A stretch of DNA of 29,412 nt from a virus: IMG/VR virus record IMGVR_UViG_3300025121_000120, positions 1 through 29,412 of that record. One strand, written 5' to 3'. Position 1 is the first letter of the stretch. Every line of letters begins with the position of its first letter. The notes beneath the pieces were generated by a model. That model saw nothing but the letters and a program-made list of their open reading frames with translations. It was not told where the DNA came from and did not search any database. Positions 10,569 to 29,412 of the stretch are shown piece by piece. The translations under genes were made by a program, and so were the position numbers.

Positions 10569-10592
10569 TTTTTGAATAATAGAGGTAACCCT

Positions 10593-11891
10593 ATGAGCGA
10601 TCTATATCGTGGTGAGCAAATTACTCTAGCTGATTTGCCAACTACTTTAGCTACAGATACAGAAGTAACAACTGCTATATCTACACACGTAGCTCTTCCC
10701 GATCCCCATACACAATATATTTTGGATACTGAAAAAGGGGCTGCATCAGGAGTTGCTACTCTCGCAAGCGATAGCAAACTCACCACAAGCCAAGCCCGAG
10801 TAATGTCTTTGCCTGTATTGACCGGTACAGGCTTAACACTCGGATCAAATTATGAACTCCTGAGTCAGCGAGGAGCACAGTATCTCGCCATTAAGAAGTT
10901 CAAAACGTTTGGCTTGTCCGCACGTTCGATTGCACTCGCTGATTCAGAGTATGGATGGACCTGGAGCAACAGGTCACAGCTTACTTCAGGCGATGAAAAC
11001 ACTACGACTGCTAATGCTTGCAGATGGTCTCACAATGCAACAGCTGATCTCTATACTTCGGCGACCAGAACCGCTCCTATGCGGTACCGAACAATGAACA
11101 ACATCTCAACTGGTGATTCGATGCAGGTCATTGCAAGGGTTAGTTCAGATGCAAGCCAGAACAGTCAATTTGCAGGTATCATTTTCACACCAGATTCGTC
11201 GCTGACAGCCATGCAAATAATGCAAGTCGGTTGGTCTGCTGGCGTTCCAAAGGTTGAGTCTTATAATGGTAGCTCGGTTCAGGTTGGTATCACAGCTCCT
11301 CAACTTGCGGCTGGCGTCTGGCTCATGATCGAGTTCAACAATAGAGTGCTGCAATCCTTCTATTCTGTCGCGGATCAAGCAACACCTCCAACAAGCTGGA
11401 CAGTCTTGCAAGCGAATAACTCTACCTTCTCTGGTGTCGGACCTTGGAGATTTGGTCAAGTGATGTCTACTACTGCTGCGGCTGCGTTTACTGCTGATTA
11501 CAAATGGTTTGATGCGAAAGGTAATACTGATCCAGAACTATGGGCTTCGAATCCGGTATGGGGAGCACAGGGTTATAACGCAACAGCTCCGGCAATCACA
11601 TTACTTGCTGATTATGATCTTGGTCCAGTATCCCCGACCGTCAATCAGACTCAGTTACGCAATGTATTGAGCGATTCTGTGAACATGAATGCTCATGACG
11701 CGGCTAGCTGGACATTCTCAGTTGTTAGATCCGAATCTTTAGGAGCTGTTGCAGGTACATACGCAGCTGCTGGTTCTGTAACTGTCGAGGGATCTGGACG
11801 ATATTTGAACGTATTCGCCAAGTGTTCCTCATCGGGTATACAGTCGGGTTCTTTACGACTTCCACTCTACATTCCATTGACACCAGCTTAA
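10593..11891 (+). CDS. Tail fibre with composition-shifted receptor-binding part
   Basis: This 432-aa protein starts at ATG 10593 after AGAGG; a TTG extension at 10572 is not needed. Residues 1 to about 60 carry phage-fibre attachment features: a short GEQITLADLP segment, then HVALPDPHTQYIL, a motif common before fibre shafts. The remainder is beta-rich with an inner segment near 170-310 resembling a concanavalin/LamG-like sandwich, and ends in a compact strand-rich domain. From about 10760 the DNA changes abruptly to higher G+C (line 11281-11340 is 32/60 G+C against 20/60 in hub line 9301-9360), so the tip appears acquired by recombination. It probably determines host receptor choice. Confidence 0.78.
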   Translation: MSDLYRGEQITLADLPTTLATDTEVTTAISTHVALPDPHTQYILDTEKGAASGVATLASDSKLTTSQARVMSLPVLTGTGLTLGSNYELLSQRGAQYLAIKKFKTFGLSARSIALADSEYGWTWSNRSQLTSGDENTTTANACRWSHNATADLYTSATRTAPMRYRTMNNISTGDSMQVIARVSSDASQNSQFAGIIFTPDSSLTAMQIMQVGWSAGVPKVESYNGSSVQVGITAPQLAAGVWLMIEFNNRVLQSFYSVADQATPPTSWTVLQANNSTFSGVGPWRFGQVMSTTAAAAFTADYKWFDAKGNTDPELWASNPVWGAQGYNATAPAITLLADYDLGPVSPTVNQTQLRNVLSDSVNMNAHDAASWTFSVVRSESLGAVAGTYAAAGSVTVEGSGRYLNVFAKCSSSGIQSGSLRLPLYIPLTPA

Positions 11892-11902
11892 GGAGCTATC
11901 GA

Positions 11903-12094
11903 ATGAATTGTTATATTTGTGACACACTAGAAGTATACGAGTATGTGTCTGAAACTCAGGGTAATCTTATCTACACTTTTGAAGTGTCGAATGGCGTGTT
12001 GCTCAAAGGTTCAAACGAATCAAACCAACACTTTTTGTGCAATAACTGTATGGTTTCTTTGCGTGATAAGGTCAGAGTGGACCGTGGGCTGTGA
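11903..12094 (+). CDS. Small four-cysteine zinc-binding protein
   Basis: This 63-aa protein starts at ATG 11903, with AGGAG seven bases upstream; the longer open frame from 11822 overlaps the fibre gene and lacks an SD. Cysteines 3, 6, 46 and 49 form two CxxC pairs, a typical zinc ribbon or knuckle. The sequence between them is short-stranded, and the C-terminus is basic. I do not know its function. It lies 11 bases after the fibre gene and shares its raised G+C content, so it may have travelled with the fibre tip, possibly as an assembly helper or as a passenger gene. Confidence 0.7.
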   Translation: MNCYICDTLEVYEYVSETQGNLIYTFEVSNGVLLKGSNESNQHFLCNNCMVSLRDKVRVDRGL

Positions 12095-12165
12095 TGACTT
12101 TCGATAAGAGAGACCATGTAGGATACGTTAAGGATCTAGGCCCGATTTCTTTCTGCCTAATTCAT

Positions 12166-12636
12166 TTAACTTAACATCCATTCTTCTGTATATTTTGGAT
12201 CCCATGTGATACCCCTTATGATAGCACTGACGTTTTGCTGTGTACAGCCAATCATAGCTCCTATAGCCTTCTGACTATATAAACCCGACTCATACATCTC
12301 ACGCGCCTTCTCGGCATGTTCTGGTGTCACCTTATCCCAAGGTCCTCTTTTTGCTATAACTCTATGTCTATTATTTGTTGCTCTACTACCTAATTTTAGG
12401 TGATCGGGATTTAGACATTTACGATTATCACAGCTATGACAGACTATATCATTCTTAGTAAGTGTTTTTCCATGGATTTTTGAATACATCCATCGATGTC
12501 CATATTCCCAAGGCTCACCTTTACCTGGGTATATAGCCGGATAGCCACATACTGTTCCTTTTTTCCAATTCCAACAACCCTCATTATTTATCTCGATTTT
12601 ACTTTTTATGCTTTCAGGTATGTTTGAAGCGAACAT
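12166..12636 (-). CDS. HNH endonuclease with C-terminal helix-turn-helix
   Basis: This 156-aa protein is numbered from ATG 12636, which has GGGG six bases upstream; an ATG at 12648 has no SD. An N-terminal GCWNW and GYP pattern leads to H47-R48, then C66-H-x-C69-D70-N71 and C74-L-N76-P77-x-H79-L, the zinc-bound HNH_3 core that nicks or cuts DNA. Residues of about 104-142 form a helix-turn-helix (KAIGAMIGCTQQNVSAII) for site recognition. This two-part design is typical of free-standing homing-type HNH enzymes in phages. Its start region lies in a 20-bp hairpin, a known way to restrain phage homing endonucleases. It sits at the strand switch beside the foreign-looking fibre tip. Confidence 0.88.
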   Translation of the reverse strand: MFASNIPESIKSKIEINNEGCWNWKKGTVCGYPAIYPGKGEPWEYGHRWMYSKIHGKTLTKNDIVCHSCDNRKCLNPDHLKLGSRATNNRHRVIAKRGPWDKVTPEHAEKAREMYESGLYSQKAIGAMIGCTQQNVSAIIRGITWDPKYTEEWMLS

Positions 12637-12715
12637 AAGATACCCCATATATTAAGATTAGTTCTAAGCACTCTGGACCCCCTGAGTGTTTGTTTATATG
12701 GGTGTATCTTATGTT
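12632..12715 (-). promoter_or_regulatory. Long hairpin enclosing HNH SD and start codon
   Basis: In the minus-strand message, bases 12715-12695 pair with 12651-12632: twelve perfect pairs (AACATAAGATAC with GTATCTTATGTT), one bulged A, then eight more (CCCATATA with TATATGGG). The 3' arm contains the GGGG SD and the ATG at 12636. The 43-nt loop holds a small CACTC/GAGTG stem. The fold should block translation of the endonuclease. Confidence 0.75.
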
Positions 12716-12719
12716 TTTA

Positions 12720-12760
12720 ATGTCTGTATAAAGATATTACAGACATATTGTAATATCTTT
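12720..12760. repeat. Two overlapping, mutually exclusive inverted repeats
   Basis: ATGTCTGT (12720-12727) pairs with ACAGACAT (12739-12746), while AAAGATATTA (12730-12739) pairs with TAATATCTTT (12751-12760). The stems share bases, so only one can form at a time. They lie between the RHH gene ending at 12831 and the HNH leader hairpin. No U-tract follows on the minus strand. Confidence 0.6.
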
Positions 12761-12830
12761 AGTTAGTTTTGTTTTATTTTGTGTGTTTTTGATATGTAAC
12801 TTTATAAATTCATCCGCTATAGGAGTACCT

Positions 12831-13061
12831 TTAGTTATCATCCTCATGAGAAGCATCTGATTTATGTTTTCTACGACCTGTTTCATCCTTTATCTCCCTC
12901 TCAATTTCCTGTATACCTAATGTTAGTGCGGTATTTACTAGGCTTTTCATTTTATAGTTATGTTCCAAACATATAGCTTGTAAGTATTTCAATATGTCAG
13001 TGTTTACTTCTACTGTACTTCTTTTAATAGGTTTGTTTATTTTCTTCTTCTCTATCAGCAC
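12831..13061 (-). CDS. Ribbon-helix-helix DNA-binding protein, second pair
   Basis: This 76-aa protein starts at GTG 13061, with GGAG eight bases upstream. KRSTVEVNTDILKYLQAICL followed by a turn and a second helix ending in GIQEIE matches the strand-helix-helix of the Arc/MetJ/CopG superfamily: one beta strand for DNA reading and two helices for dimerisation. A charged C-terminal tail follows. It overlaps the end of the 114-aa gene by 38 bases, so the two are probably co-translated. Relatives act as phage or plasmid repressors, partition proteins or antitoxins; nothing here chooses among these. Confidence 0.7.
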   Translation of the reverse strand: MLIEKKKINKPIKRSTVEVNTDILKYLQAICLEHNYKMKSLVNTALTLGIQEIEREIKDETGRRKHKSDASHEDDN

Positions 13062-13368
13062 TTTTATCTCTCCAAGTAGTTAATGCTTCCTTAATGTTTT
13101 TGTCTTCTATATATTCAGCCACTGTCTGTGCGTTTCTCAACATCTCTTCCTCTTGTGCCTGTGTAAGCCTTAGTTTATCCAGATGCGTTGAGAAACGCTG
13201 TAGAATGGCTTGAGGCGGGTTAAGCCTTCTACGTTTATCTTTAGGTTGTTTTGTGTATTTTTTATGTCCATGTGTAGCTAATATATCATCTAAATTTATG
13301 TCTGTATCATCATAGCTATCTAATATTGTTTGTATGTCTATTATGTCACGGGTAATACTCCTCTTCAT
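13024..13368 (-). CDS. Basic partner protein of RHH pair, paralogue of the 82-aa protein
   Basis: This 114-aa protein starts at ATG 13368 after a GGGGG tract and overlaps the preceding RHH gene by 23 bases. I do not recognise a family. Residues with LDDILATHG, a basic KDKRRR stretch and then PPQAILQRF align with LDSILSTYN, a basic stretch and PTKKFINRF in the 82-aa protein at 13635, so the two look paralogous. An additional IQTILDSYD near the N-terminus may be an internal repeat of the LDxIL motif. The C-terminus is helical and charged. Short linear motifs plus a basic patch suggest a DNA- or protein-binding adaptor that works with the RHH proteins. Confidence 0.65.
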   Translation of the reverse strand: MKRSITRDIIDIQTILDSYDDTDINLDDILATHGHKKYTKQPKDKRRRLNPPQAILQRFSTHLDKLRLTQAQEEEMLRNAQTVAEYIEDKNIKEALTTWRDKSADREEENKQTY

Positions 13369-13546
13369 GGTTTTTAACCCCCTTTATTTCTTTTGGATCA
13401 AACTCTCTTAGAGCCTTTTTTAGCAGATAGTCTATCAAATCTACTTGATAATAACCATATTGCCTACACAGCTCCCTAATCTGGTCATGTGTTTCGGCTG
13501 ACATAGTCACGGATATTACTGCTTTGTTCCTTTTCCGAATACGCAT
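13346..13546 (-). CDS. Ribbon-helix-helix DNA-binding protein, first pair
   Basis: This 66-aa protein starts at ATG 13546, with TAGGAT about six bases before it. KAVISVTMSAETHDQIRELC gives the beta strand and first helix, and VDLIDYLLKKALREF the second helix, of an RHH fold. Its LCRQYGY turn resembles ICLEHNY in the 76-aa RHH protein, and the helices align, supporting common origin. The basic N-terminus (MRIRKRNK) would contact DNA. Upstream is the perfect palindrome at 13573-13584, a likely operator for it or its relatives. Probable job: autoregulator of this part of the early operon. Confidence 0.7.
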   Translation of the reverse strand: MRIRKRNKAVISVTMSAETHDQIRELCRQYGYYQVDLIDYLLKKALREFDPKEIKGVKNHEEEYYP

Positions 13547-13572
13547 TTTTTTATCCTATGTTTTTATATATT

Positions 13573-13584
13573 GTATACGTATAC
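13573..13584. promoter_or_regulatory. 12-bp palindrome, putative RHH operator
   Basis: GTATACGTATAC is a perfect palindrome 27 bases upstream of the 66-aa RHH start, in the gap between this gene and the 82-aa gene. RHH dimers bind short palindromic or tandem sites of this size. An ACTGTATAC reading on the minus strand resembles TATACTGTA sites near 17017 and 17313. Confidence 0.5.
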
Positions 13585-13634
13585 AGTGATGTATAAAAGG
13601 ATTATGCAAAGTGTTTATTGGTAGGTAGTTTAGT

Positions 13635-13883
13635 TTAGTTCAGAAAATGTGTGGAGATATATTGTTCGAGGATTTCTTGTTCTTTGAGGTCTTGTTTTTC
13701 TAATTCTAAATCTCTAACCCAATCAGGTTTAGTATTAGTTTTGGGAAATCTATTGATAAATTTCTTGGTAGGTTTTATAGTCCTGGCTCTAGGCTTTTTA
13801 GGTTTAGTTTCTTGATTGTAAGTAGAAAGGATTGAGTCTAGGTCTTGGGTTTCTTCAGCGAGTTTAAGGTTTCGATATTTCAT
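13635..13883 (-). CDS. Basic small protein, paralogue of the 114-aa protein
   Basis: This 82-aa protein is annotated from ATG 13883; a GTG two codons earlier lies inside the leader hairpin and is less likely. It contains LDSILSTYN near the N-terminus, a Lys/Arg/Pro-rich middle, PTKKFINRF, and a charged C-terminal helix ending in an EQYISTHF segment. The same motif order occurs in the 114-aa protein at 13024, and each precedes an RHH gene. No known family is evident. The weak SD (TTAGG) is buried in a 17-bp perfect hairpin, so expression may be tightly limited. The role is unknown; a DNA-binding adaptor or regulator is the simplest guess. Confidence 0.65.
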   Translation of the reverse strand: MKYRNLKLAEETQDLDSILSTYNQETKPKKPRARTIKPTKKFINRFPKTNTKPDWVRDLELEKQDLKEQEILEQYISTHFLN

Positions 13884-13923
13884 ATACACCTAACTATATG
13901 TATTCAATATAGTTAGGTGTATA
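13883..13923 (-). promoter_or_regulatory. 17-bp perfect hairpin over SD of the 82-aa gene
   Basis: TATACACCTAACTATAT (13883-13899) and ATATAGTTAGGTGTATA (13907-13923) are exact reverse complements with a seven-base loop. In the minus-strand message the 3' arm contains TTAGG and ends on the A of the ATG at 13883. It begins 12 bases after the stop of the DCL gene. No U-tract follows, so it fits an SD-blocking hairpin better than a terminator, though a DNA operator is possible. Confidence 0.7.
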
Positions 13924-13934
13924 CAAACAGAGAA

Positions 13935-14585
13935 TTAAGATTGGTTACACTTAAAAGCTTTAGATATTCTTAATTTGGAATTTTTTCTGTGGTAGGATCT
14001 GAATTTCTTTATTAAATCTTCATCTTCCAGATTCCATCCATATTCTCCATCTTTTTTATATTTTACCTTACTAAGGTCTATCTTCTCTTCATCAATGAAC
14101 CCCCTAACTATGGAAGCTAAAGTAGTAGAGGGGTCGTGTGTTGCTCTACACTGTTCCCATGTTATGTCTTCATTAGTTATAGAACATTTCATAGTGTTAT
14201 TCACTTGATGTTTTTTGAAATAATTCTCTTTCCACCAAAAAACATTGTTCTCGACAGTTTTCTTACATGCTTTAGAGAAAGATGTATATTCTGGCAGCTC
14301 TCCAGACAAACACTTACCATATGAAAAGTCTTCTGTAGTTCCGTCTGACCTTCGGATATGAAAACATCTATTAGCAAAATAGTCAGTGTCACCTACATAA
14401 ATGCCTACTATCCCGCTACCTGCTTTAGATGTGTAGCTTGGATGAAGCACTAACAAACTCATCACATCTTCATAGTCCTGTTCATTTAAAGTCTGACCTA
14501 ACTCATAAGAGTTCAAAATACTTTTGTAGTGTTTTGTGGCATCTGATTTTGTTTTAAATACCTTATCGCCTATTGTTATTTGCAT
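13935..14585 (-). CDS. DCL/DUF3223-domain protein with HNH-like C-terminus
   Basis: This 216-aa protein starts after AAGGAG. Residues 1-95 carry the DCL (DUF3223) pattern: I-G-D-K-V-F, LLxxHP (H48-P49), K54-x-G-x-G58, R73-C-F, R79-x-D-G, D86-F-S-Y-x-K-C92. The same domain occurs in the plant DCL protein, in the tail of plant RNA polymerase V, and in bacterial and phage proteins often joined to HNH nucleases; its biochemical role is unsettled. Here C134 and C146 with H150-D-P152 resemble a partly degraded HNH core, followed by helices. It sits directly downstream of the primase-helicase, suggesting work on replicating DNA or nucleic-acid binding. Confidence 0.75.
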   Translation of the reverse strand: MQITIGDKVFKTKSDATKHYKSILNSYELGQTLNEQDYEDVMSLLVLHPSYTSKAGSGIVGIYVGDTDYFANRCFHIRRSDGTTEDFSYGKCLSGELPEYTSFSKACKKTVENNVFWWKENYFKKHQVNNTMKCSITNEDITWEQCRATHDPSTTLASIVRGFIDEEKIDLSKVKYKKDGEYGWNLEDEDLIKKFRSYHRKNSKLRISKAFKCNQS

Positions 14586-14628
14586 ATAATCTCCTTAAAA
14601 TAATCTGAGTTTTTGAATTTAGGCTATA

Positions 14629-16977
14629 TTAAAATACTTCAAAAGATATTTCTACTTCGTTTTTTTCAACAATATTGTCAGGGTAGAAACCCTCAGGAGG
14701 TGTATAAGGTGTAGCTGGCGAAGAAGTTAAAGGGTTCCAACATCTTTTACCCGCTGTCCACCCTATCTTAGTTAATCTAGAAGCTAATTGCCTCTCACTT
14801 ATCTTATAAGTGTGTAGCTCATTGAATTTTTTAGTAGCAGTAGCTAAAAAATTCACTCCGTTTATCATATGTTCTTGAGCAAAAAGTTTATACTCATCTT
14901 CTTCTATTCCTTTTGCATTCTCTTCTTGGTATATATCGGATCTACCGAATATACCATTTTTTGACATGGCCCATGTTACAAAAGCGTCTATATGGTTTTT
15001 CACAAACCATTTACCAAAATGAGGTATCGCGTCTTTTGTATCCCGGATTCGTTTGTTTATGGTCAATACTCGTACTCTATCTTCTACTGCACCCGAATAA
15101 TCACCCCCACGTCCCATCTCTTCGTTAGCAAAAAATAAAAGATTTGCCCTACTTGTAAATTTTACTGGCTCCTGTCTTATAGGCCTTGCTTGTATTTCGT
15201 CTCCTCCGGTCATTTTTTTGATAGTAGCGATAGCTCTTCTAGATGGCTTGGAAATTTCTCCTCCTACATTTAGAAGCGAATTTTTTAATTCTGCTAGGTA
15301 ATATTCTGCATTATCTGCCCCTAAATTATCCATGCCTACTGCACTTCTATGCTGAAGTGGTACAAGCCCTTGTAATATATCACTTAATTGTGACTTACCC
15401 GTCCCAGGTGCTCCATAAAGGTATAGTAGTTTCTGGTGAGATACATCCCCCAGCAAAACGGCCTTTGCAAATAAACCATACTCATCTAATTTTTGTAGAG
15501 ATTCTATTTCTGAATCACCAAACATAGGCATTATTTTTTCATACACTATGCTTGTAGATATGTTTGGGTCCCATGATACATCCAATTGATAAGTACAAAA
15601 TATACCTTCAGTATTATTTTTGGGCTCAGTCTGTTCTCCTGCTAGAACTGCTTTGCGACTTATGATACCATTTTTAAAAGATATATAATCTTGTTGCTGT
15701 TCTTCATACTCTGGTTTCCAAGTATCTTCTTTAACTATCCACAAAATGGCTTCTGTCTGTGATTTTATCTGTGAAGCAGAGGTTATTATTTTTTCAGCTC
15801 TCATCCTTTTTGCAAGTAAGGTATGTATATTCTCAAGTTCTTGAGACACATAATATTTTTTCTTATCGTCCCATTTATAAATGAGGTTACCTGGGGTAAT
15901 TACATATTTTTGATCTATAAGATAATTGATAAATGCATCCTGTACCGCAAATAGTTTATCTCCTTTAGAACCTTTACTTTTAATTCTAGACCCTGGAGTA
16001 CCTTTTGAATTCCTTTTTGCTGATTTAAGTTTAGTAATTAAATCCTTATCTTTCCAAGGGGGTGAGGCATTACTATTATTCCATTTCTTAAATATGGCTA
16101 AAGCTAAATCATCAGGAATATTAAAGTCATTTTTTATTGAACATGCTACTTTATAAGTATTTTTATCTCCACCGTCACCTGTTTGAGCATTGATCTTACT
16201 TATACTATTCCAACATTTTTCTAATATTTTCTTTCTTTCTTCCAAACCTGTTGGAAAGTCTGTAGGTATTTCCAACAGGTTTGGAGTAAATGTATTTTCC
16301 AAAGGCACTGGAAACCATTTAGCGTCAAAAACAGGTATCTCAGAATCTTCCCAGGTCTCATTTATCCATTCATATACTACTCCTGTTACATGTACACTTG
16401 GTGGAGCTACAACATAACTGTTATCTCCTTTTACATCTATATCAATTTTTTTGCCCTCTACCTCTATTTTTATTTTTGTATCAAGAGGAAATCCCGGATG
16501 TTTATAATACCTATGATACCCCTTAGCTGTTTTCACCATCATAGGAGTTTTTGGTAAAGTTTCAGAAACCCATTTCTCACCCTCAATGGAGTCAGAATCC
16601 ACAACTACATAATCACTTATTGCTCCTAAGACTATACCTATATTTCTCTCATAATATCTGCTAGAGTTTAATTCACCAAACCAATATGCGGTATTCTCTG
16701 ATGTTGGATGGGCTCTTTGGTAAGGCTCCCATGTAGAAACACCTTTTTCATCTTTCGGTAAAAGTCTACTCAATGGTTTTTTATTGTCATACTTATAGAC
16801 AAGTTTGTTATTTTCATCTAAGGTAGGCTCTAAGTCTATGCCACCATAATTGAGCGGTATGAAACTAAGCTTTAAAGCTGAGTACATATCTGCCATTTTT
16901 CGTAACCTATTTTCTGGTTTTGTATCTAAGTCTAAATCTTCAATTGATTCGGTATCGATTTCAAAATTTTTTACCAT
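14629..16977 (-). CDS. Primase-polymerase/SF3 helicase replication protein
   Basis: This 782-aa protein is the replication initiator/helicase of the phage. N-terminal archaeo-eukaryotic primase (prim-pol) residues are D127-x-D129, H155 and D179, followed by YVVAPPS and G-V-V-Y-E-W, as in bifunctional primase/polymerases. The C-terminal SF3 helicase has Walker A GAPGTGKS (522-529), Walker B-like LLNVGGE (568-574), sensor N618 and arginine-finger candidate R634, with a winged-helix-like end. It should open DNA and lay primers, relying on host polymerase because no phage polymerase is present. The SD AGGAGC precedes the ATG by seven bases but is paired in a 7-bp hairpin. The inverted-repeat region 17402-17950 upstream is its likely origin. 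Confidence 0.93.
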   Translation of the reverse strand: MVKNFEIDTESIEDLDLDTKPENRLRKMADMYSALKLSFIPLNYGGIDLEPTLDENNKLVYKYDNKKPLSRLLPKDEKGVSTWEPYQRAHPTSENTAYWFGELNSSRYYERNIGIVLGAISDYVVVDSDSIEGEKWVSETLPKTPMMVKTAKGYHRYYKHPGFPLDTKIKIEVEGKKIDIDVKGDNSYVVAPPSVHVTGVVYEWINETWEDSEIPVFDAKWFPVPLENTFTPNLLEIPTDFPTGLEERKKILEKCWNSISKINAQTGDGGDKNTYKVACSIKNDFNIPDDLALAIFKKWNNSNASPPWKDKDLITKLKSAKRNSKGTPGSRIKSKGSKGDKLFAVQDAFINYLIDQKYVITPGNLIYKWDDKKKYYVSQELENIHTLLAKRMRAEKIITSASQIKSQTEAILWIVKEDTWKPEYEEQQQDYISFKNGIISRKAVLAGEQTEPKNNTEGIFCTYQLDVSWDPNISTSIVYEKIMPMFGDSEIESLQKLDEYGLFAKAVLLGDVSHQKLLYLYGAPGTGKSQLSDILQGLVPLQHRSAVGMDNLGADNAEYYLAELKNSLLNVGGEISKPSRRAIATIKKMTGGDEIQARPIRQEPVKFTSRANLLFFANEEMGRGGDYSGAVEDRVRVLTINKRIRDTKDAIPHFGKWFVKNHIDAFVTWAMSKNGIFGRSDIYQEENAKGIEEDEYKLFAQEHMINGVNFLATATKKFNELHTYKISERQLASRLTKIGWTAGKRCWNPLTSSPATPYTPPEGFYPDNIVEKNEVEISFEVF

Positions 16978-16984
16978 TTTTGTT

Positions 16985-17005
16985 GCTCCTAAGTGTTATA
17001 GGAGC
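16985..17005 (-). promoter_or_regulatory. Hairpin hiding the SD of the primase-helicase gene
   Basis: In the minus-strand message GCTCCTA (17005-16999) pairs perfectly with TAGGAGC (16991-16985) across a seven-base loop. TAGGAG is the SD of the replication gene starting at 16977, so the stem directly covers it. The stem is short but rich enough in G+C to matter. Confidence 0.65.
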
Positions 17006-17010
17006 GAGTT

Positions 17011-17031
17011 TATAAGTATACTGTACTTATA
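17011..17031. promoter_or_regulatory. 8-bp inverted repeat, putative operator of replication operon
   Basis: TATAAGTA (17011-17018) and TACTTATA (17024-17031) are inverted around TACTG. The site is 34 bases upstream of the primase-helicase start and includes TATACTGTA, also found at 17313-17321 in front of the 56-aa RHH gene. I infer an operator for an RHH regulator. Confidence 0.45.
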
Positions 17032-17081
17032 CTTTGCTACTGTAATAGCATTGTCCCGCCCCCTGATGTTTTTGTTGCTTT

Positions 17082-17118
17082 AAGGCCTGAGGATTTGGCT
17101 GATCCTCAGGCCTTTTTA
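17082..17118 (+). terminator. 13-bp stem terminator-like hairpin with T-rich + side
   Basis: AAGGCCTGAGGAT (17082-17094) pairs with ATCCTCAGGCCTT (17102-17114) around a seven-base loop, followed on the + strand by TTT and a T-rich tail. On the minus strand no U-tract follows, yet the only nearby gene ending here is the minus-strand RHH gene (stop at 17127). It may stop leftward RHH transcripts without a U-tract, or rightward transcripts from an unseen + strand RNA. Confidence 0.65.
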
Positions 17119-17126
17119 TTTTCTAC

Positions 17127-17297
17127 TTATCTTAAGTCTAACTTGCCATCTTCAATATCTTTTAATCCTCGTTTTATAATCTCAGATGCTACTGAACTTA
17201 TTCTACGTGTGGTGCCACAATAGGCTATTAACTGTTCATATACATCTTTGTTTAGTCCTATTACCCTGCCATTCTTGCTTTTAGTCTTTGTTTCCAT
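17127..17297 (-). CDS. Short ribbon-helix-helix (CopG/Arc-type) regulator
   Basis: This 56-aa protein starts at ATG 17297 with GGAGAGCC upstream (AGGAG, seven-base spacing) and ends at 17127. Residues 10-16 (GRVIGLN) form the strand, 17-27 the first helix with YEQLIAYC, and 34-48 (SSVASEIIKRGLKDI) the second helix: a minimal RHH protein. It is the first gene of the early block, between the inverted-repeat region and the primase-helicase, where phage and plasmid copy-control repressors are often found. Likely target: the inverted repeats at 17302-17338 and 17011-17031. It is the third RHH protein in this genome. Confidence 0.75.
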   Translation of the reverse strand: METKTKSKNGRVIGLNKDVYEQLIAYCGTTRRISSVASEIIKRGLKDIEDGKLDLR

Positions 17298-17301
17298 TTC
17301 G

Positions 17302-17338
17302 GCTCTCCTTCTAGTAGTTTTTATACTGTAAGTATTTT
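17302..17338. promoter_or_regulatory. Inverted repeat in the promoter region of the 56-aa RHH gene
   Basis: TAGTAGT (17302-17308) and ACTACTA (17332-17338) flank a segment with TATACTGTAAGTAT. A minus-strand TATAAA lies inside, close to -10 position for the RHH gene. This is consistent with autoregulation; the assignment is by position and symmetry only. Confidence 0.45.
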
Positions 17339-17401
17339 TACACTACTATATTCTATAAATAGATTAGTGATTTTATCCTAAATGTGAAATAATTTTTAAT
17401 A

Positions 17402-17950
17402 GTAATGCCACATCTATGTAGCATTACCTGTATTTAAGCTGAAATCTACACTATTTCAAAAACAGGTATTTTTGTAAAATATTTTTGGTTTGCCATTAAC
17501 GGCATTCCTTGCCTTAGTAAAATAACTACTTTTTGAACAGGTGTTTTCAGCAAAAACAGTATAACCATATGATAAAAAACATTTATCTGAACCTACACAT
17601 CTTTCTTGTGGAAAGATGTGTAGGTTATATGTGTAGGCGAATTCTTTAATAAAATCATATAATAACAAAATTCCTACACATCTTTCTGAGAACTCCTCAT
17701 GTTCTATACAAATTTTAAAAAGTGTTTTTCAAGAGCCACTTAAGACATACCTAAGTGGAGTAAGCAAAAAACTAATTGCAGATAACTCCTCTTTTTGAAA
17801 GATGTGTAGGAATTAGAAGAAAGTGGCTCTAAGTATAGGTAGTCATTAGAGAATAAAATCCTACACATCTATTCTTGGCTTAAAAACAAGAATAGATGTG
17901 TAGGCATCCCTCAATTTTTGTGCCACATCTTTTTAACTTAATGTTTTCGC
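17402..17950. other. Putative replication origin: clustered inverted repeats of CCTACACATCT
   Basis: No convincing gene lies in this AT-rich stretch. CCTACACATCT occurs forward at 17592, 17673 and 17860 and reversed ending at 17624, 17810 and 17904. These form a perfect 16-bp hairpin with 5-nt loop (17590-17605/17611-17626), an 18-bp inverted pair 110 bases apart (17669-17686/17797-17814), and a perfect 18-bp hairpin with 9-nt loop (17860-17877/17887-17904). Partial copies occur near 17631 and 17922. A further palindrome lies at 17402-17427, and AGAGCCACTT (17732) is inverted at 17821. Repeats with one core next to a primase-helicase gene are the pattern of an iteron-type origin. An operator array is the alternative. 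Confidence 0.6.
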
Positions 17951-18181
17951 TAGAGAATAGTATGATTTTAAAAACCCTATAGTATCTAACATTTGTGTAC
18001 AATACTATTGAATATTTTATGTCCTCAAACACAATATAAAGTTATTAAGAATAAATGGGTAACTATAGATTTTAAGTCTAGAGATAAATATCTTAGACAG
18101 AACAAAAGAAGACAAACATGACTCACAAGCGGAGTGCCCTTGAGTCACGTTTATAAAAGGATAGGGTAGTAAGGGGTAGGA
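17951..18181. other. Gene-free stretch with stem-loops
   Basis: I find no gene here. Inverted repeats include AATAGTAT/ATACTATT (17956-17963/18002-18009), a ten-pair stem with one bulge at 18076-18086/18089-18098 (GTCTAGAGATA with TATCTTAGAC), and TGACTCA/TGAGTCA (18119-18125/18141-18147). It may extend the origin, hold the end of the lysis transcript, or encode a small RNA. No T-tract terminator is clear. Confidence 0.4.
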
Positions 18182-18481
18182 TTAGCTGACTATATCAAGG
18201 ATAACCGTGTCCGTAGATCTTGACACAGCTTTGGCATTAAAGACTTTACTATATGCTATTTTAGCATCTTTATCTACAGAATATAGATTGACCCAAAATT
18301 CAGCCTGATCAATGACTCTTGCATCAATAAAAGCACTTTGAGCTATTGCAATACCATTATATATGACTGTAACTTGAGTAGTATCCTCAGAAATAAAGTC
18401 AAGTGATTCTAAGGTATGTGCAACTTCTGGTAAAATAACATAACCAACTACTGCATTATCATATCTAGCAACGAAAGCCAT
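18182..18481 (-). CDS. Unknown protein at end of lysis operon
   Basis: This 99-aa protein starts at ATG 18481 after AGGAG. I do not recognise it. It is predicted to be beta-rich, moderately hydrophobic, with no N-terminal signal, no clear membrane helix and no peptidoglycan hydrolase motif. It follows the o-spanin gene by 18 bases and is the last gene of a four-gene minus-strand block. From position it could be a lysis accessory or an unrelated late protein; its Ser/Val/Asp-rich strands would also suit a small virion protein. Confidence is for the gene, not for a function. Confidence 0.75.
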   Translation of the reverse strand: MAFVARYDNAVVGYVILPEVAHTLESLDFISEDTTQVTVIYNGIAIAQSAFIDARVIDQAEFWVNLYSVDKDAKIAYSKVFNAKAVSRSTDTVILDIVS

Positions 18482-18499
18482 TTTAACTCCTAAATTTAA

Positions 18500-18679
18500 T
18501 TACCAAGCGCCAGCTTGATATGTATTACTCGCGAAAGTTTGACTAGAAACTCTCACCCCTAATTCGGATGCTAATGTTTCCCTGGCATCCGTACCGTATG
18601 CTATGCTACAAGCAGTGATTAAAGAGAATAGAATAGCAACTAACCAAAATAATAATGTGTTACGTGTTTTTTGGAGCAT
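18500..18679 (-). CDS. o-spanin (Rz1-like outer-membrane lipoprotein)
   Basis: This 59-aa protein starts at ATG 18679, with AAGGAT about seven bases upstream. A signal peptide of residues 1-23 (a hydrophobic run after KTRN) ends in LITAC, a classic lipobox, so C24 would be lipidated and the 36-residue remainder anchored to the outer membrane facing the periplasm. The start lies inside the end of the 105-aa gene (20-base overlap), the overlapping Rz/Rz1 arrangement known from lambda-type spanins. The mature part is short and lacks the Pro-rich stretch of lambda Rz1. It would join the i-spanin to disrupt the outer membrane in lysis. Confidence 0.8.
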   Translation of the reverse strand: MLQKTRNTLLFWLVAILFSLITACSIAYGTDARETLASELGVRVSSQTFASNTYQAGAW

Positions 18680-18977
18680 GATCAGAATCCTTTGGATCTT
18701 TAGAGGTTAATAAATGTTCTGAAGTCCTACGAAGATTTTCTAAAGCTAATCTTTGGATATCAACTTCTAATTGATCTTTTTGGGCTTCAATTAAATCATT
18801 TTGTCTCTTTTTATGTATAAAAAGATCAAGAAAATCTTTTATGAATTGTGATAACACTTTATAAATTTTAGTGACAACATAAATGATAAAGAGAATGCAG
18901 AACATGATACCAGCAGCAAACCTGCTTTGACTGTCTAACATTATATCTAACATTTTACCTAAGAACATGTCAAACAT
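18660..18977 (-). CDS. i-spanin (Rz-like inner-membrane protein)
   Basis: This 105-aa protein starts at ATG 18977 behind AGGGGG. One membrane segment spans about residues 20-42 (GIMFCILFIIYVV core). A basic stretch and a long charged helix (about 58-95, heptad-like with LEVDIQRLALENL) follow, then a polar tail. This is the layout of an i-spanin: membrane anchor plus periplasmic coiled coil. The o-spanin gene overlaps its 3' end. The N-terminal 19 residues before the membrane segment are somewhat longer than in Rz, so a holin-like protein is the alternative, but the overlapping lipoprotein gene favours spanin. Confidence 0.75.
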   Translation of the reverse strand: MFDMFLGKMLDIMLDSQSRFAAGIMFCILFIIYVVTKIYKVLSQFIKDFLDLFIHKKRQNDLIEAQKDQLEVDIQRLALENLRRTSEHLLTSKDPKDSDHAPKNT

Positions 18978-18999
18978 GACTACCCCCTATAAAAACCTA

Positions 19000-19194
19000 T
19001 TAAACAAGACAGATTGGATTAGAACCTTCCCAGCAAGCTTTCGAAGTATCCCCGTTAACGGGTAAACCTATTTCCGATACTCTTTTGAGTATCGCCGCAG
19101 CCACACGATGCCATCTATCTCTTTCATCTTGGCTAAGAACCTCCCAAGGTCTATACCTTGATGAAGCTTCATAAGCGATTTGTCCGTATGTCAT
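19000..19194 (-). CDS. Small conserved-type phage protein, first gene of lysis block
   Basis: This 64-aa protein starts at ATG 19194 after AAGGTGG. The opening MTYGQIAYEA and a later W-H/R-x-x-A-A-A-I pattern recall short phage proteins of unknown function that contain a G-Q-x-A-Y-E-A start followed by one or more Trp residues. It ends with two cysteines and a hydrophobic ICLV. There is no membrane segment, so it is not a holin. It is 22 bases upstream of the i-spanin gene and likely shares its transcript. Function unknown. Confidence 0.7.
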   Translation of the reverse strand: MTYGQIAYEASSRYRPWEVLSQDERDRWHRVAAAILKRVSEIGLPVNGDTSKACWEGSNPICLV

Positions 19195-19414
19195 GTTTCC
19201 ACCTTTAGATTTTTATATACAATATTAGTTCGTAAGCAGGTCAAAAAACCTACAAGTAGTTATATTTTATATGTTATAGACTGAGTATGCATGGCCCACG
19301 GTAAAAAAGTTTTAACCACACTGTAAAATCTAGTCATATAGAAGGAATATATCAGTATTCTATATCATAGAATATTAATAGAAAAGAATAAAAAGCTTCT
19401 AAGAAGGGGAGAAT
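19195..19414. promoter_or_regulatory. Divergent promoter region between lysis block and 77-aa gene
   Basis: This AT-rich gap separates a minus-strand operon from a single + strand gene, so it must hold two promoters. TATTCTAT (19356-19363) and ATAGAATA (19367-19374) form an inverted repeat with three-base spacer, 41 bases before the + strand gene, a plausible operator. Several TATA-like boxes occur but none with a clear -35. Confidence 0.45.
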
Positions 19415-19648
19415 ATGTTGCTGTTAAATACAATACAAAATAAAAGAGTAAGATTAAAACCAGAAATAGTATATGCCCCCATAACAGACCAAATATATCA
19501 ACAACACCCGTTATGGTATGTAGCATGGGAATTTGAAGAGGGGACTATTTTAGAACGTGACTGGTTTGATACGGTATTTAAAGGTAAGAAATTAATAGAC
19601 ATTAACAATATGTTTTTAGATTTGGAAAAAAGAGTAGGTCAGAAATAA
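19415..19648 (+). CDS. Orphan + strand small protein, unknown
   Basis: This 77-aa protein starts at ATG 19415 with AGGGGAG upstream (three- to six-base spacing). It contains a central HPLWYVAWEFEEGTILERDWF segment rich in aromatic and acidic residues and a basic N-terminus, with no membrane helix or known motif. It is the only + strand gene between two minus-strand blocks and converges with the portal gene with 14 bases between stops. Its isolation and own promoter region suggest an early or regulatory/host-interaction gene, but nothing in the sequence proves it. Confidence 0.65.
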   Translation: MLLLNTIQNKRVRLKPEIVYAPITDQIYQQHPLWYVAWEFEEGTILERDWFDTVFKGKKLIDINNMFLDLEKRVGQK

Positions 19649-19662
19649 TAGAATCTCAGAAC

Positions 19663-21129
19663 TCATTCTGTGATAGCAGGTGTAGATACTATAGTTTGAT
19701 TGACTGGGGTTAATAAACCTGCTTGGATTAAGGTTTTTCTTTCAGCTCCTCTAAGTATTAAGATACTTAGAGCCATATCTCTATTAATAGTATTATCTTC
19801 TAAGTCATTTTCAGCAAGATATAAATCAACAGGTGTTTTGATACCTTTATCTACATCAATTCTTATAGTATTTAGAAGCCTTTCTTTTTCATCAGATGTC
19901 CAACTAATAGGGTACTGTATTTCAAAATCATCTTCGGGTATATATTTCTCGGGATATAAATAATTCCAAGTGGATACAAGAATTTTTATTAACTCTTTAT
20001 CCTTTTTCTTATTCTGAGTTTCTTGTTGAGATCTATATTGCCAAAGACCACTAAGCTCAAGTTGTATAGCTACACCACTCTTAGCAGACTCAGATTTCCT
20101 AACTTGTAAACCTGTATCATATCTACCTAAAATTTCTTGTATACGATCTGAATGTTGAGACCAATATTTTTCTAAAGCTACAGAACTATCGGGTATTATC
20201 TCCATAGATTTATTGCCCTCACCAAATAAATTAATGAGTATCGAAGGCTCTAACATCGCCTCTTGTGTCCCCTGTAAAGGAGACTCAGAAAATATCACAG
20301 GTCTAGAAAAAGCCCCTACATAACTCATCCATCTTAAATGTGATCTCTCAAGTATAATCTCAAGAGTGTCTGTGACCATGTCTCCAGTAGTCGGCAATAG
20401 ACAATTCGGAGAGGAAGAACCCTGATATATGATACCACCCATAATAGGCTTACCTTTAAAGTACCACGGGTAATCATCACCGGAAAGAAATTTTATAGCT
20501 TTGTTTGTACCAGTTTTTTTAAAAACTTTATAATCAGATATATTTTTCCAAACTGAAAAAGAAGGTTCTTCAGAAAAATCCCAAACAAAAACCCCTTGAT
20601 TACTTTCTTCTATAACAATCATAGGCTTTAAAGGATTATTCGGAAATGGAATGGCCGTAACTAAATGTGGGGGCACTACTACTAAACCAGGAGGAAAACC
20701 TTCCTCAATATGAGGTCTAACCCAACAAGACCTTAAACCTATGGCATACTCTAGTTTATGTTGCAATACTACATCTAAATCAACGGTCTCTTTGCACTCT
20801 TGCCAGTTTATATTTTCTGACAAACTACCAGTAATACGAACCCCTTTGCGATGTATCATGGCTAATTGATCTACAACTCTATGTTGCAAATGCCAAGAGA
20901 CATCTAAAGAATTAATTAAATGAGCATGTTTTAGACCAACCCCACTGTCATTTACAGGTCCAGAAGACACAGTCTCATCTAAATATCTTTGTAAAAGGAC
21001 CCCAAAAGAACCATATAGACGGTTATCTGTTTTCCCACGATACCAATCTGATTCCCAGCTAATAAGTGCATCTAAATGTTTTCTTTTTCTTTTTGTTTCA
21101 AAAAAATCATACTGACTAAGATCAAACAT
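19663..21129 (-). CDS. Portal protein
   Basis: This 488-aa protein forms the dodecameric ring through which DNA enters and leaves the head. The start is ATG 21129, where AAGGAG lies six bases upstream; a frame extension to 21168 is within TerL and has no SD. It overlaps TerL by eight bases, the usual TerL-portal order. Supporting features: a mid-region with LERSHLRWMSYVG and a later KSGVAIQLELSG segment before long polar helices, as in portal crown/stem architecture. Length fits (about 450-530 aa). The neighbouring TerL and I-like protease resemble Mu gp28 and gpI, so a Mu gp29 (DUF935) relative is plausible, but I cannot fix the subfamily. Confidence 0.78.
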   Translation of the reverse strand: MFDLSQYDFFETKRKRKHLDALISWESDWYRGKTDNRLYGSFGVLLQRYLDETVSSGPVNDSGVGLKHAHLINSLDVSWHLQHRVVDQLAMIHRKGVRITGSLSENINWQECKETVDLDVVLQHKLEYAIGLRSCWVRPHIEEGFPPGLVVVPPHLVTAIPFPNNPLKPMIVIEESNQGVFVWDFSEEPSFSVWKNISDYKVFKKTGTNKAIKFLSGDDYPWYFKGKPIMGGIIYQGSSSPNCLLPTTGDMVTDTLEIILERSHLRWMSYVGAFSRPVIFSESPLQGTQEAMLEPSILINLFGEGNKSMEIIPDSSVALEKYWSQHSDRIQEILGRYDTGLQVRKSESAKSGVAIQLELSGLWQYRSQQETQNKKKDKELIKILVSTWNYLYPEKYIPEDDFEIQYPISWTSDEKERLLNTIRIDVDKGIKTPVDLYLAENDLEDNTINRDMALSILILRGAERKTLIQAGLLTPVNQTIVSTPAITE

Positions 21130-22573
21130 ATACAACTCCTTCTTTAAATATGTCAGAAGCAAACGCATAAGCCAAACTATCCGCCCTATCTGGTGATGAA
21201 ATGCCTCTTTTTTGCATATCTATTTTAGATTGGACTTTTATCTTTCCATCATTCCGCTCTTCTATAATAATAGACAATAACTGTTCTATGAGCTTTCCAT
21301 CATTAGGGATAGCAATACATTTGTCTAAGCTGAGTCCCTTTGAGGTAGCTTCAAAGCGCTCGTGTAAGGCCCAATATAATCTGGCCCTACGGTTAACGAA
21401 TCTAGCGGACTCAGAAGAGCCACCACCTCTAATACCAAAGGCTTTTTTAAAATCTTTTTGTTTTAAATAACTGGAGAAATTCTCTCCCCAACCACCATCC
21501 GCATCATAATATAATTTATCACAATCTTTGACTAGTTCAAAAGCCTTTTCTGATGATTGAAGACTATCCTCTAATCTCCAAGATGTAATACCAAGAACTT
21601 TAATACCTTGTCTAAGTATAACTACAGACTCACAAACTCCACCCCCCGATGGATCGTACCCAGCATGAATAGGTATTGAAGTATTATTGATTTTCAACTT
21701 GTTCCAAAGATCTACAGAAGCTTGGATCCACTCTTTTTTAAATAAAGTACCAGATAGAGAAGCAAAAGGGTCACAATCTATCTCTCGTGAGACATAGATA
21801 GCATCTTTTTCTGAGACCATTTTGTCATACCAACTTTGAGTCTTCCTTAAATCATCAGTCCATTTAAAATCAAACCTGGCAATTTTACCATTAGTAGCTA
21901 GCTTATAGAATAAATTACCCGGACTTGTGAAGGTAGAAAGATATATAGCCGACCCTCCGTCTTGAATATTACCTGTGACAGCATGGTCTATAGACTCTTG
22001 ATGCTCACATCCAGCAAACTCATCTAAAAAATACATCTTAGATCTACCACCACGACCTACACCATCTCCACCTTCTCCTTTTAAAGTTGAACCATTTTCT
22101 AAATTTAAGATTAATCCTACTTTCTCATCATGAGCAGGTGTAAGAAAATTAGGTAACATCTCAATAGCTAATCTGATTTTACCAAATATACTATCTAGGT
22201 TCCCTTTTTCATCTACATATTTAAGTTTCCGACTACTAAAACCTATTGAAGTTTCTCTTTTAAATAACCAACACCAAATACCAAAAGAGGCACTAACCCA
22301 GGTAGCACCTATATCACGAGGCTTTACTACTACACCAGAAGTACCTGTAATATATCTTTCATAGAGCCAGAGAATATATTTTTTTTGAGCAGGATATAAT
22401 TTAAAAGGTATTCTAGATGGGTTTTTTCTAGGGTCATAAGTCCAAATCCAATTATCTATAAAATATATTGGATCTTGATTACATCTAACTAATTCATCTA
22501 AAAGAAAATCCTTTTCAGTTTCACATCTTATCTTAAGCTTGGTACGTCGTAGTATTTCAGATTTGAGATCCAT
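21122..22573 (-). CDS. terL: Terminase large subunit
   Basis: This 483-aa ATPase-nuclease packages DNA. Walker A is the variant KPRDIGATW (84-92) typical of Mu gp28-like terminases; Walker B is YFLDE (181-185). The RNase H-like nuclease carries acidic residues D307 (GYDPSGGG), D357/D359 (YYDADGG) and D465 (PDRADSLAYA). Length matches the family. The gene overlaps the end of TerS by 17 bases and the start of portal by eight. It is divergent from the capsid operon. A headful or cos mode cannot be decided from the sequence; the circular assembly favours circularly permuted ends. Confidence 0.93.
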   Translation of the reverse strand: MDLKSEILRRTKLKIRCETEKDFLLDELVRCNQDPIYFIDNWIWTYDPRKNPSRIPFKLYPAQKKYILWLYERYITGTSGVVVKPRDIGATWVSASFGIWCWLFKRETSIGFSSRKLKYVDEKGNLDSIFGKIRLAIEMLPNFLTPAHDEKVGLILNLENGSTLKGEGGDGVGRGGRSKMYFLDEFAGCEHQESIDHAVTGNIQDGGSAIYLSTFTSPGNLFYKLATNGKIARFDFKWTDDLRKTQSWYDKMVSEKDAIYVSREIDCDPFASLSGTLFKKEWIQASVDLWNKLKINNTSIPIHAGYDPSGGGVCESVVILRQGIKVLGITSWRLEDSLQSSEKAFELVKDCDKLYYDADGGWGENFSSYLKQKDFKKAFGIRGGGSSESARFVNRRARLYWALHERFEATSKGLSLDKCIAIPNDGKLIEQLLSIIIEERNDGKIKVQSKIDMQKRGISSPDRADSLAYAFASDIFKEGVVYV

Positions 22574-22997
22574 AACGCTCCATTAATTGCTCTACAGATA
22601 ATTCTTCTAATTTCTTAGAAGCTATTTCTGGAATAGCAGATATAGATTTGTTAACTTTCTCAATCTCGGTAGGAATATAGAATGCTCTTCTTTCCATAAT
22701 CTTGAGAGCTGTATTAATAGATTGGACATCACCATTTTTTATCTTCCCTTCTAGTGACTTTAACATTAGGTCTAATCTAAGTAACTCTTGCTCCCTAACC
22801 AGCTCAGCCAACTCACGATATTTATCTTTTTGCTCTAGAAGAGCAGACTCAACATGTTTATATGCAGTTTGTTTGGACACACACATCGTATCCGCTATCT
22901 CTTGATATGTATACCCTTTAACTCTTAAATCTAGAGCTTCATATTTTCTGATAGCCCCCTTAGCAATCGGTACTGACATTTTAGATTGTCTTGGCAT
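22557..22997 (-). CDS. terS: Terminase small subunit
   Basis: This 146-aa DNA-binding protein recognises the packaging start. ATG 22997 follows AGAGGGG. Residues of about 28-52 form a helix-turn-helix (GYTYQEIADTMCVSKQTAYK), a charged coiled-coil-like helix spans about 60-90, and a C-terminal segment ends in EELSVEQLMERYG, likely contacting TerL. Length and order (TerS-TerL-portal) are standard. It is the first gene of the minus-strand packaging operon, which begins next to the perfect inverted repeat at 23053-23090, a candidate packaging or control site. Confidence 0.85.
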   Translation of the reverse strand: MPRQSKMSVPIAKGAIRKYEALDLRVKGYTYQEIADTMCVSKQTAYKHVESALLEQKDKYRELAELVREQELLRLDLMLKSLEGKIKNGDVQSINTALKIMERRAFYIPTEIEKVNKSISAIPEIASKKLEELSVEQLMERYGSQI

Positions 22998-23052: not shown

Positions 23053-23090
23053 TATAACTTATGAACTAAACATTTAGTTCATAAGTTATA
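23053..23090. promoter_or_regulatory. 18-bp perfect inverted repeat between divergent packaging and capsid operons
   Basis: TATAACTTATGAACTAAA (23053-23070) and its exact reverse complement (23073-23090) are separated by CA only. The site lies between the TerS start and the capsid protease start, with a further AGTTCAT half-site near 23126 and TATTCAT/ATGAATA at 23101-23107/23134-23140. It could be an operator for both late operons or a TerS recognition site. No T-tract, so not a simple terminator. Confidence 0.6.
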
Positions 23091-29285: not shown

Positions 29286-29412
29286 AAATAGAGGTTTTTA
29301 TGTTGGTGAGTATACCAGAACTTTTAGAATATTTCGATATAAAACAATCCTCTGGAAATCAAGAGCAGTTGCATGTACGTGCTGAAATGGGTTTACCGCA
29401 ATATAGATCTAC
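29286..29412. repeat. Right copy of 127-bp end overlap
   Basis: Exact copy of 1-127. It contains a truncated second copy of the start of the 99-aa gene (ATG at 29300). It marks closure of the circle and should be trimmed once when counting genes. Confidence 0.93.

Follow-up and report, generated by a model that had tools for sequence, protein, structure and literature searches.

Results

The window analysed here is an entire viral record (IMGVR_UViG_3300025121_000120; 29,412 bases), and because an exact 127-bp direct repeat stands at its two ends (1-127 and 29286-29412), it probably represents the complete genome of a small tailed phage. The phage is unclassified and unrelated to T4. A DNA search of a phage collection returned no related phage, and no relatives were found in a viral collection with the primase, 82-aa, terminase, capsid-position, portal-position and protease proteins, nor in bacterial genomes with the primase protein. 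On the minus strand, a block from 12166 to 22997 holds an HNH gene, small ribbon-helix-helix-like (RHH-like) genes, a primase-helicase gene, and the gene for the terminase large subunit with its neighbours. A sequence-only reading of this DNA had called the block early; that timing is unproven, because the terminase large subunit shares the same strand block. Beside the block, third-position GC in 10572-12165 is above that of the rest of the genome (0.37 in a 439-aa ORF, about 0.22 elsewhere), which suggests a different ancestry for this segment.

The same reading had placed SD-covering stems at three genes of the block, and all three are present with the SDs inside them: 7 bp at the primase gene, a perfect 17 bp at the gene for an 82-aa basic protein, and 20 pairs with one bulge at the HNH gene (Table 1).

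Table 1. Genes and leader features of the minus-strand block, with positions in the window
Feature	Positions	Strand	Basis or detail
HNH_3 endonuclease gene, C-terminal HTH-like region	12166..12648	-	Pfam HNH_3 3e-7, phrog_1872 2e-20, codon use
HNH leader stem, 20 pairs (12+8)	12632..12715	-	arms 12695-12715 / 12632-12651; one bulged base, 12703
Candidate uORF in HNH hairpin, 21 codons	12606..12671	-	GTG 12671; out of frame, overlaps HNH start
Overlapping 13-bp and 9-bp hairpins, mutually exclusive	12720..12761	-	upstream of HNH stem
82-aa basic protein gene	13635..13883	-	no family; codon use of a real gene
Perfect 17-bp hairpin, loop 7	13883..13923	-	arms 13907-13923 / 13883-13899; most of a 51-nt gap
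Prim-Pol / DUF5906 primase-helicase gene	14629..16977	-	Pfam 2e-19 and 2e-12; phrog_1156 8e-31
Primase SD stem GCUCCUA/UAGGAGC, 7 bp, loop 7	16985..17005	-	arms 16999-17005 / 16985-16991
Three-way junction competing with primase SD stem	17000..17063	-	P1 17055-17063/17000-17008; P2 17045-17050/17035-17040; P3 17024-17031/17011-17018
Candidate uORF ATG CTA TTA CAG TAG (MLLQ), 4 codons	17037..17051	-	SD AGGGGGC 17058-17064, mostly inside P1
Orphan intrinsic-terminator-like hairpin	17082..17124	+	antisense to primase leader; follows immediately on the stop of gene 17127-17297
56-aa gene, probable ribbon-helix-helix (RHH)	17127..17297	-	upstream of primase; phrog Arc-like E 0.09

The HNH gene probably starts at ATG 12636, with another in-frame ATG at 12648. 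Its leader stem covers the SD-like GGGG at 12643-12646 and, as had been claimed, the start codon too, ATG 12636 lying inside the 3' arm. The stem is strong against shuffled sequences (z = -6.1), and opening the stretch from SD to AUG is calculated to cost 23.6 kcal/mol, a value that none of 300 shuffles reached; the corresponding cost in the other genes runs from 0.3 to 9.7 kcal/mol. The SD of the candidate uORF in this hairpin (AGGGGGT, 12677-12683) lies in the loop. A TATAAA at 12698 falls within the 5' arm/loop region, where promoter scans performed no better than the null, and the scans gave no demonstrable late promoter in the 5' arm or the loop. TATAAA was rejected as a promoter element of the phage, since its excess upstream of genes (10 against 2.3 expected from genome density) is confounded by AT-rich gaps. 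Predicted sigma-70 promoters were likewise dropped as evidence of transcript starts inside the loops, the predictions being no better than null. Upstream of the stem, the 13-bp member of the two exclusive hairpins is followed on its plus-strand side by a T-rich run and is perhaps the terminator of a converging plus-strand operon.

Close relatives of the HNH gene that could show compensating changes were not found; distant homologues carry different stems in the same place. We surveyed 27 HNH homologues from other uncultured viruses and 51 neighbouring genes for SD-covering structure at p<=0.05 by shuffling. Such structure was present in 6 of the 27 HNH leaders and in 1 of the 51 neighbours (Fisher P=0.006), the most striking being L021 (17 pairs), L014 and L016, the last with a start chosen by hand. 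When raw opening energies were compared at the same loci there was no HNH enrichment (P=0.58), the enrichment appearing only after shuffle normalisation. Thus, the survey provides moderate evidence that HNH homologues elsewhere carry SD-covering structure more often than their neighbours do.

Long hairpins are abundant throughout this genome. It contains 15 perfect stems of at least 12 bp, overlapping pairs in the iteron region being counted more than once, compared with 0-1 per shuffled genome. The majority are intergenic, with many in gaps on both strands, some at the iteron cluster and some within genes. A 17-bp perfect inverted repeat at 16241-16285, for instance, sits inside the coding sequence of the primase, in the stretch that separates the Prim-Pol part from the helicase part. 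Perfect palindromic hairpins of 16 and 17 bp occur at 883-918 and 23053-23090, about 55 nt before SDs, one of them between divergent operons.

It had been argued that three such placements on SDs would be improbable by chance. That argument fails against the genome's own hairpins: sliding each of the eleven intergenic long stems along its own gap gave an expectation of 1.84 SD hits, and 2 were observed (P=0.59). The 7-bp primase stem, taken separately, gave p=0.0045 for one gene, or about 12% across 29 genes. We conclude that the long hairpins are real and non-random, and that their placement on SDs, as a set, is at chance level; the placement of a hairpin needs to be judged against the hairpin background of the genome in which it is found.

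The hairpin of the 82-aa gene covers the SD (AGGTG, 13887-13891), its arm extends to the A of ATG 13883, and its existence, like that of the HNH stem, lies well outside chance expectation (z = -6.9; SD-AUG opening cost 24.9 kcal/mol, 0 of 300 shuffles). In the sliding test its probability of covering the SD was 0.65, so its position there is nearly forced, because the hairpin takes up 41 nt of a 51-nt gap. The protein had no match in Pfam or phrog family searches. It is a distant paralogue of the 114-aa protein encoded at 13024-13368, with an alignment score reached by 0 of 1000 shuffles, and both paralogues are without an assigned function.

The primase leader presents a different picture. 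The SD (AGGAG, 16986-16990) lies in the 3' arm of the 7-bp stem, ahead of ATG 16977, and the predicted cost of freeing it depends on where the transcript begins: 11-12 kcal/mol for starts at 17010-17020, and about 0.8-2 kcal/mol for starts at 17067 or further upstream. The SD stem dominates only in transcripts that begin nearby. The stem over the SD that had been described is thus present, but it is no plain block, since from 17067 upstream the cost is only about 1-2 kcal/mol and a competing, SD-free fold is available. In that fold the 5' arm of the SD stem, CUCGCUCCU, pairs with GGGGGCGGG (17055-17063), two hairpins are enclosed in a three-way junction, and the SD is left free. The junction is the predicted MFE structure as the chain grows and would form first. 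It has a z of -5.2, and when the upstream part was shuffled 1000 times, only 4 shuffles gave one as competitive. At equilibrium, about 0.7 of the ensemble is predicted to be closed and 0.3 open, and the leader is predicted to be bistable. An Rfam search with this leader gave no match at the gathering threshold and nothing at E up to 5.

The strong antisense terminator-like hairpin upstream of this leader is beyond chance and has no plus-strand gene to serve; it was recognised by sequence match, and termination is a prediction. The scan for an antisense promoter at the primase leader found only weak promoter-like sites, not above the null. For the adjacent 56-aa protein, a low-confidence structure model with a beta-alpha-alpha arrangement points weakly to a ribbon-helix-helix fold; Foldseek returned no PDB match and was uninformative. 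Further upstream, CCTACACATCT / AGATGTGTAGG occurs about seven times in 17590-17904, in either orientation and with perfect hairpins of 16 and 18 bp among the copies, and this iteron-like cluster upstream of the RHH-like gene and the primase gene is a candidate replication origin.

An alignment of the three leaders gave nothing beyond chance, and the long arms of the HNH and 82-aa stems have no other copy in the genome within 3 mismatches; an operator common to the three leaders was rejected on these grounds. The only word noticed in two leaders is TCAGGGGG, which the HNH loop shares with the primase leader; each copy holds the SD of a short ORF (MLLQ at 17051 and GTG 12671). As a shared element of the two leaders it was also discarded, as the contexts do not align beyond chance. 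Two uORF SDs were found in the leaders, compared with a mean of 0.035 in shuffles (0 of 200 reaching two), at an SD threshold that was fixed after the leaders had been seen.

Discussion

The three stems lie on one strand within 4.4 kb, all over SDs, and had been read as a coordinated translational switch, in which a single factor or timing event would open them together. We regard such a switch as very improbable: the SD placement is at chance level, the leaders have no sequence in common, the stems differ in sequence, length and strength (about 24, about 24 and 1-12 kcal/mol), and the primase has its own competing fold. Probable in our judgement, if only just, is a reading in which a hairpin-rich phage genome carries three leader structures independent of one another: RBS sequestration at the HNH gene, a gap hairpin at the 82-aa gene and a bistable leader at the primase gene. 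What was found directly for them are sequences, predicted folds and statistics, from which we infer every regulatory step.

Sequestration at the HNH gene has a precedent. In T4 and its relatives, SD-sequestering stems are described on I-TevI, I-TevII, I-TevIII, segB and mobE of Aeh1, the last of which is an HNH enzyme (PMC3014915, PMC2988022). In these endonuclease leaders a late promoter is so placed that late transcripts are made without the 5' arm (PMC3014915, PMC2988022). As in those five genes, a stable stem lies over the SD, here that of an HNH gene standing free on a strand with several genes, and in this case it lies over the start codon too. Unlike the T4-type hairpins, ours belongs to a phage unrelated to T4, a uORF overlaps the stem, and no late promoter is demonstrable in the 5' arm or loop. 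The comparison that had been drawn with T4 for this stem is backed by I-TevI, segB and Aeh1 mobE together with the homologue survey. By analogy, the 20-pair stem would hide the SD and the start codon in any transcript begun upstream, and the homing endonuclease would be kept nearly silent, as are I-TevI, segB and mobE. Relief could come in two ways: transcription could start within the 5' arm or the loop, or ribosomes translating the overlapping uORF could open the 3' arm. Overall, fit of the HNH stem to RBS sequestration of the T4/mobE type is supported, with repression as a prediction and the homing type assigned by family match. This finding extends the set of phage genomes with SD-hidden homing endonucleases by an unrelated phage and by several distant HNH homologues, and suggests that such stems are widespread beyond T4-like phages.

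An SD stem on a phage gene that does not encode an endonuclease, as at the other two genes, resembles the leaders of T4 gene e and soc. In gene e a late promoter lies within the DNA that encodes the 5' strand of the stem, whereas no such promoter is demonstrable here. The 82-aa hairpin is one of the many long perfect intergenic hairpins of this phage, almost necessarily over the SD in a 51-nt gap, and its position there probably follows from the length of the hairpin and the small size of the gap. Transcribed whole, it should strongly block translation.

The primase leader is the most interesting lead, as a compact candidate for RNA control of phage replication. In its two predicted folds, CGCUCCU would pair either with the primase SD (closed) or with the upstream G-run that serves as the uORF SD (open, the three-way junction). 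Its likeliest role, in view of an antisense terminator without a gene of its own and a probable RHH gene just upstream, would be plasmid-like tuning of the translation of a replication gene. In pMV158, where the order is copG-RNAII-repB, rep is blocked at the level of translation by an antisense RNA that carries a terminator hairpin (PMC4485353). The phage locus is like it in its order: a small putative RHH gene is followed by a leader with an antisense terminator hairpin and then by a replication gene; unlike it, the phage has a primase-helicase in place of a rolling-circle Rep, a longer leader and a putative antisense RNA, and by protein family the locus is not a member of the pMV158 type. 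Control of the plasmid type, in which a short antisense RNA ending at 17114-17124 would bind the leader and, jointly with the uORF, determine how much primase is translated, is favoured by the gene order, by the orphan plus-strand terminator right after the RHH-like gene, by the strong SD of the uORF and by the iteron cluster upstream. We nevertheless consider it fairly unlikely, given a best antisense promoter score of 5.6, which is common by chance, and a Prim-Pol helicase rather than a rolling-circle Rep.

Translation of rep in plasmids R1 and ColIb-P9 is coupled to a leader peptide. The phage leader is similar in that a replication gene with its SD in a stem is preceded by a short ORF with a strong SD; it differs in that the uORF is 4 codons long, stops about 60 nt upstream and would compete with the rep start rather than overlap it. 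A bolder proposal, to which we give quite a low probability, is that the leader acts as an RNA switch with two states: a single anti-SD strand would pair either with the SD of the 4-codon leader peptide, in the three-way junction, or with that of the primase, the choice being set by an antisense RNA or a ligand. This would amount to copy-number control of the plasmid type in the replication gene of a small tailed phage.

Two further explanations deny the RNA structures a central role, and both appear unlikely to us. The palindromes may be DNA-level operators or promoter elements for the small RHH-like repressors of the phage, with RNA pairing incidental. In favour, the minus-strand block contains two to three RHH-like genes, the P3 element of the primase leader forms a palindrome, and perfect palindromes occupy other promoter-type gaps (883-918, 13572-13585 and 23053-23090). 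However, no second copy of the 17-nt arm is found at up to 3 mismatches, TACnGTA sites lie chiefly within coding sequence, and the HNH and primase stems hold an exact SD complement, all of which weigh against DNA sites. Alternatively, the hairpins could be largely products of template switching at quasi-palindromes with little regulatory role, as the long perfect inverted repeats found genome-wide, coding sequence included (for example the 17 bp at 16241-16285), would suggest. Against this stand the intergenic location of most long stems and the more frequent SD-covering structure of HNH homologues compared with their neighbours; furthermore, a fully transcribed SD stem of 24 kcal/mol would probably not be neutral.

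One candidate operator was seen at another gene of the block: the perfect 14-bp palindrome TGTATACGTATACA at 13572-13585, directly before the second RHH-like gene, is likely to be such a site.
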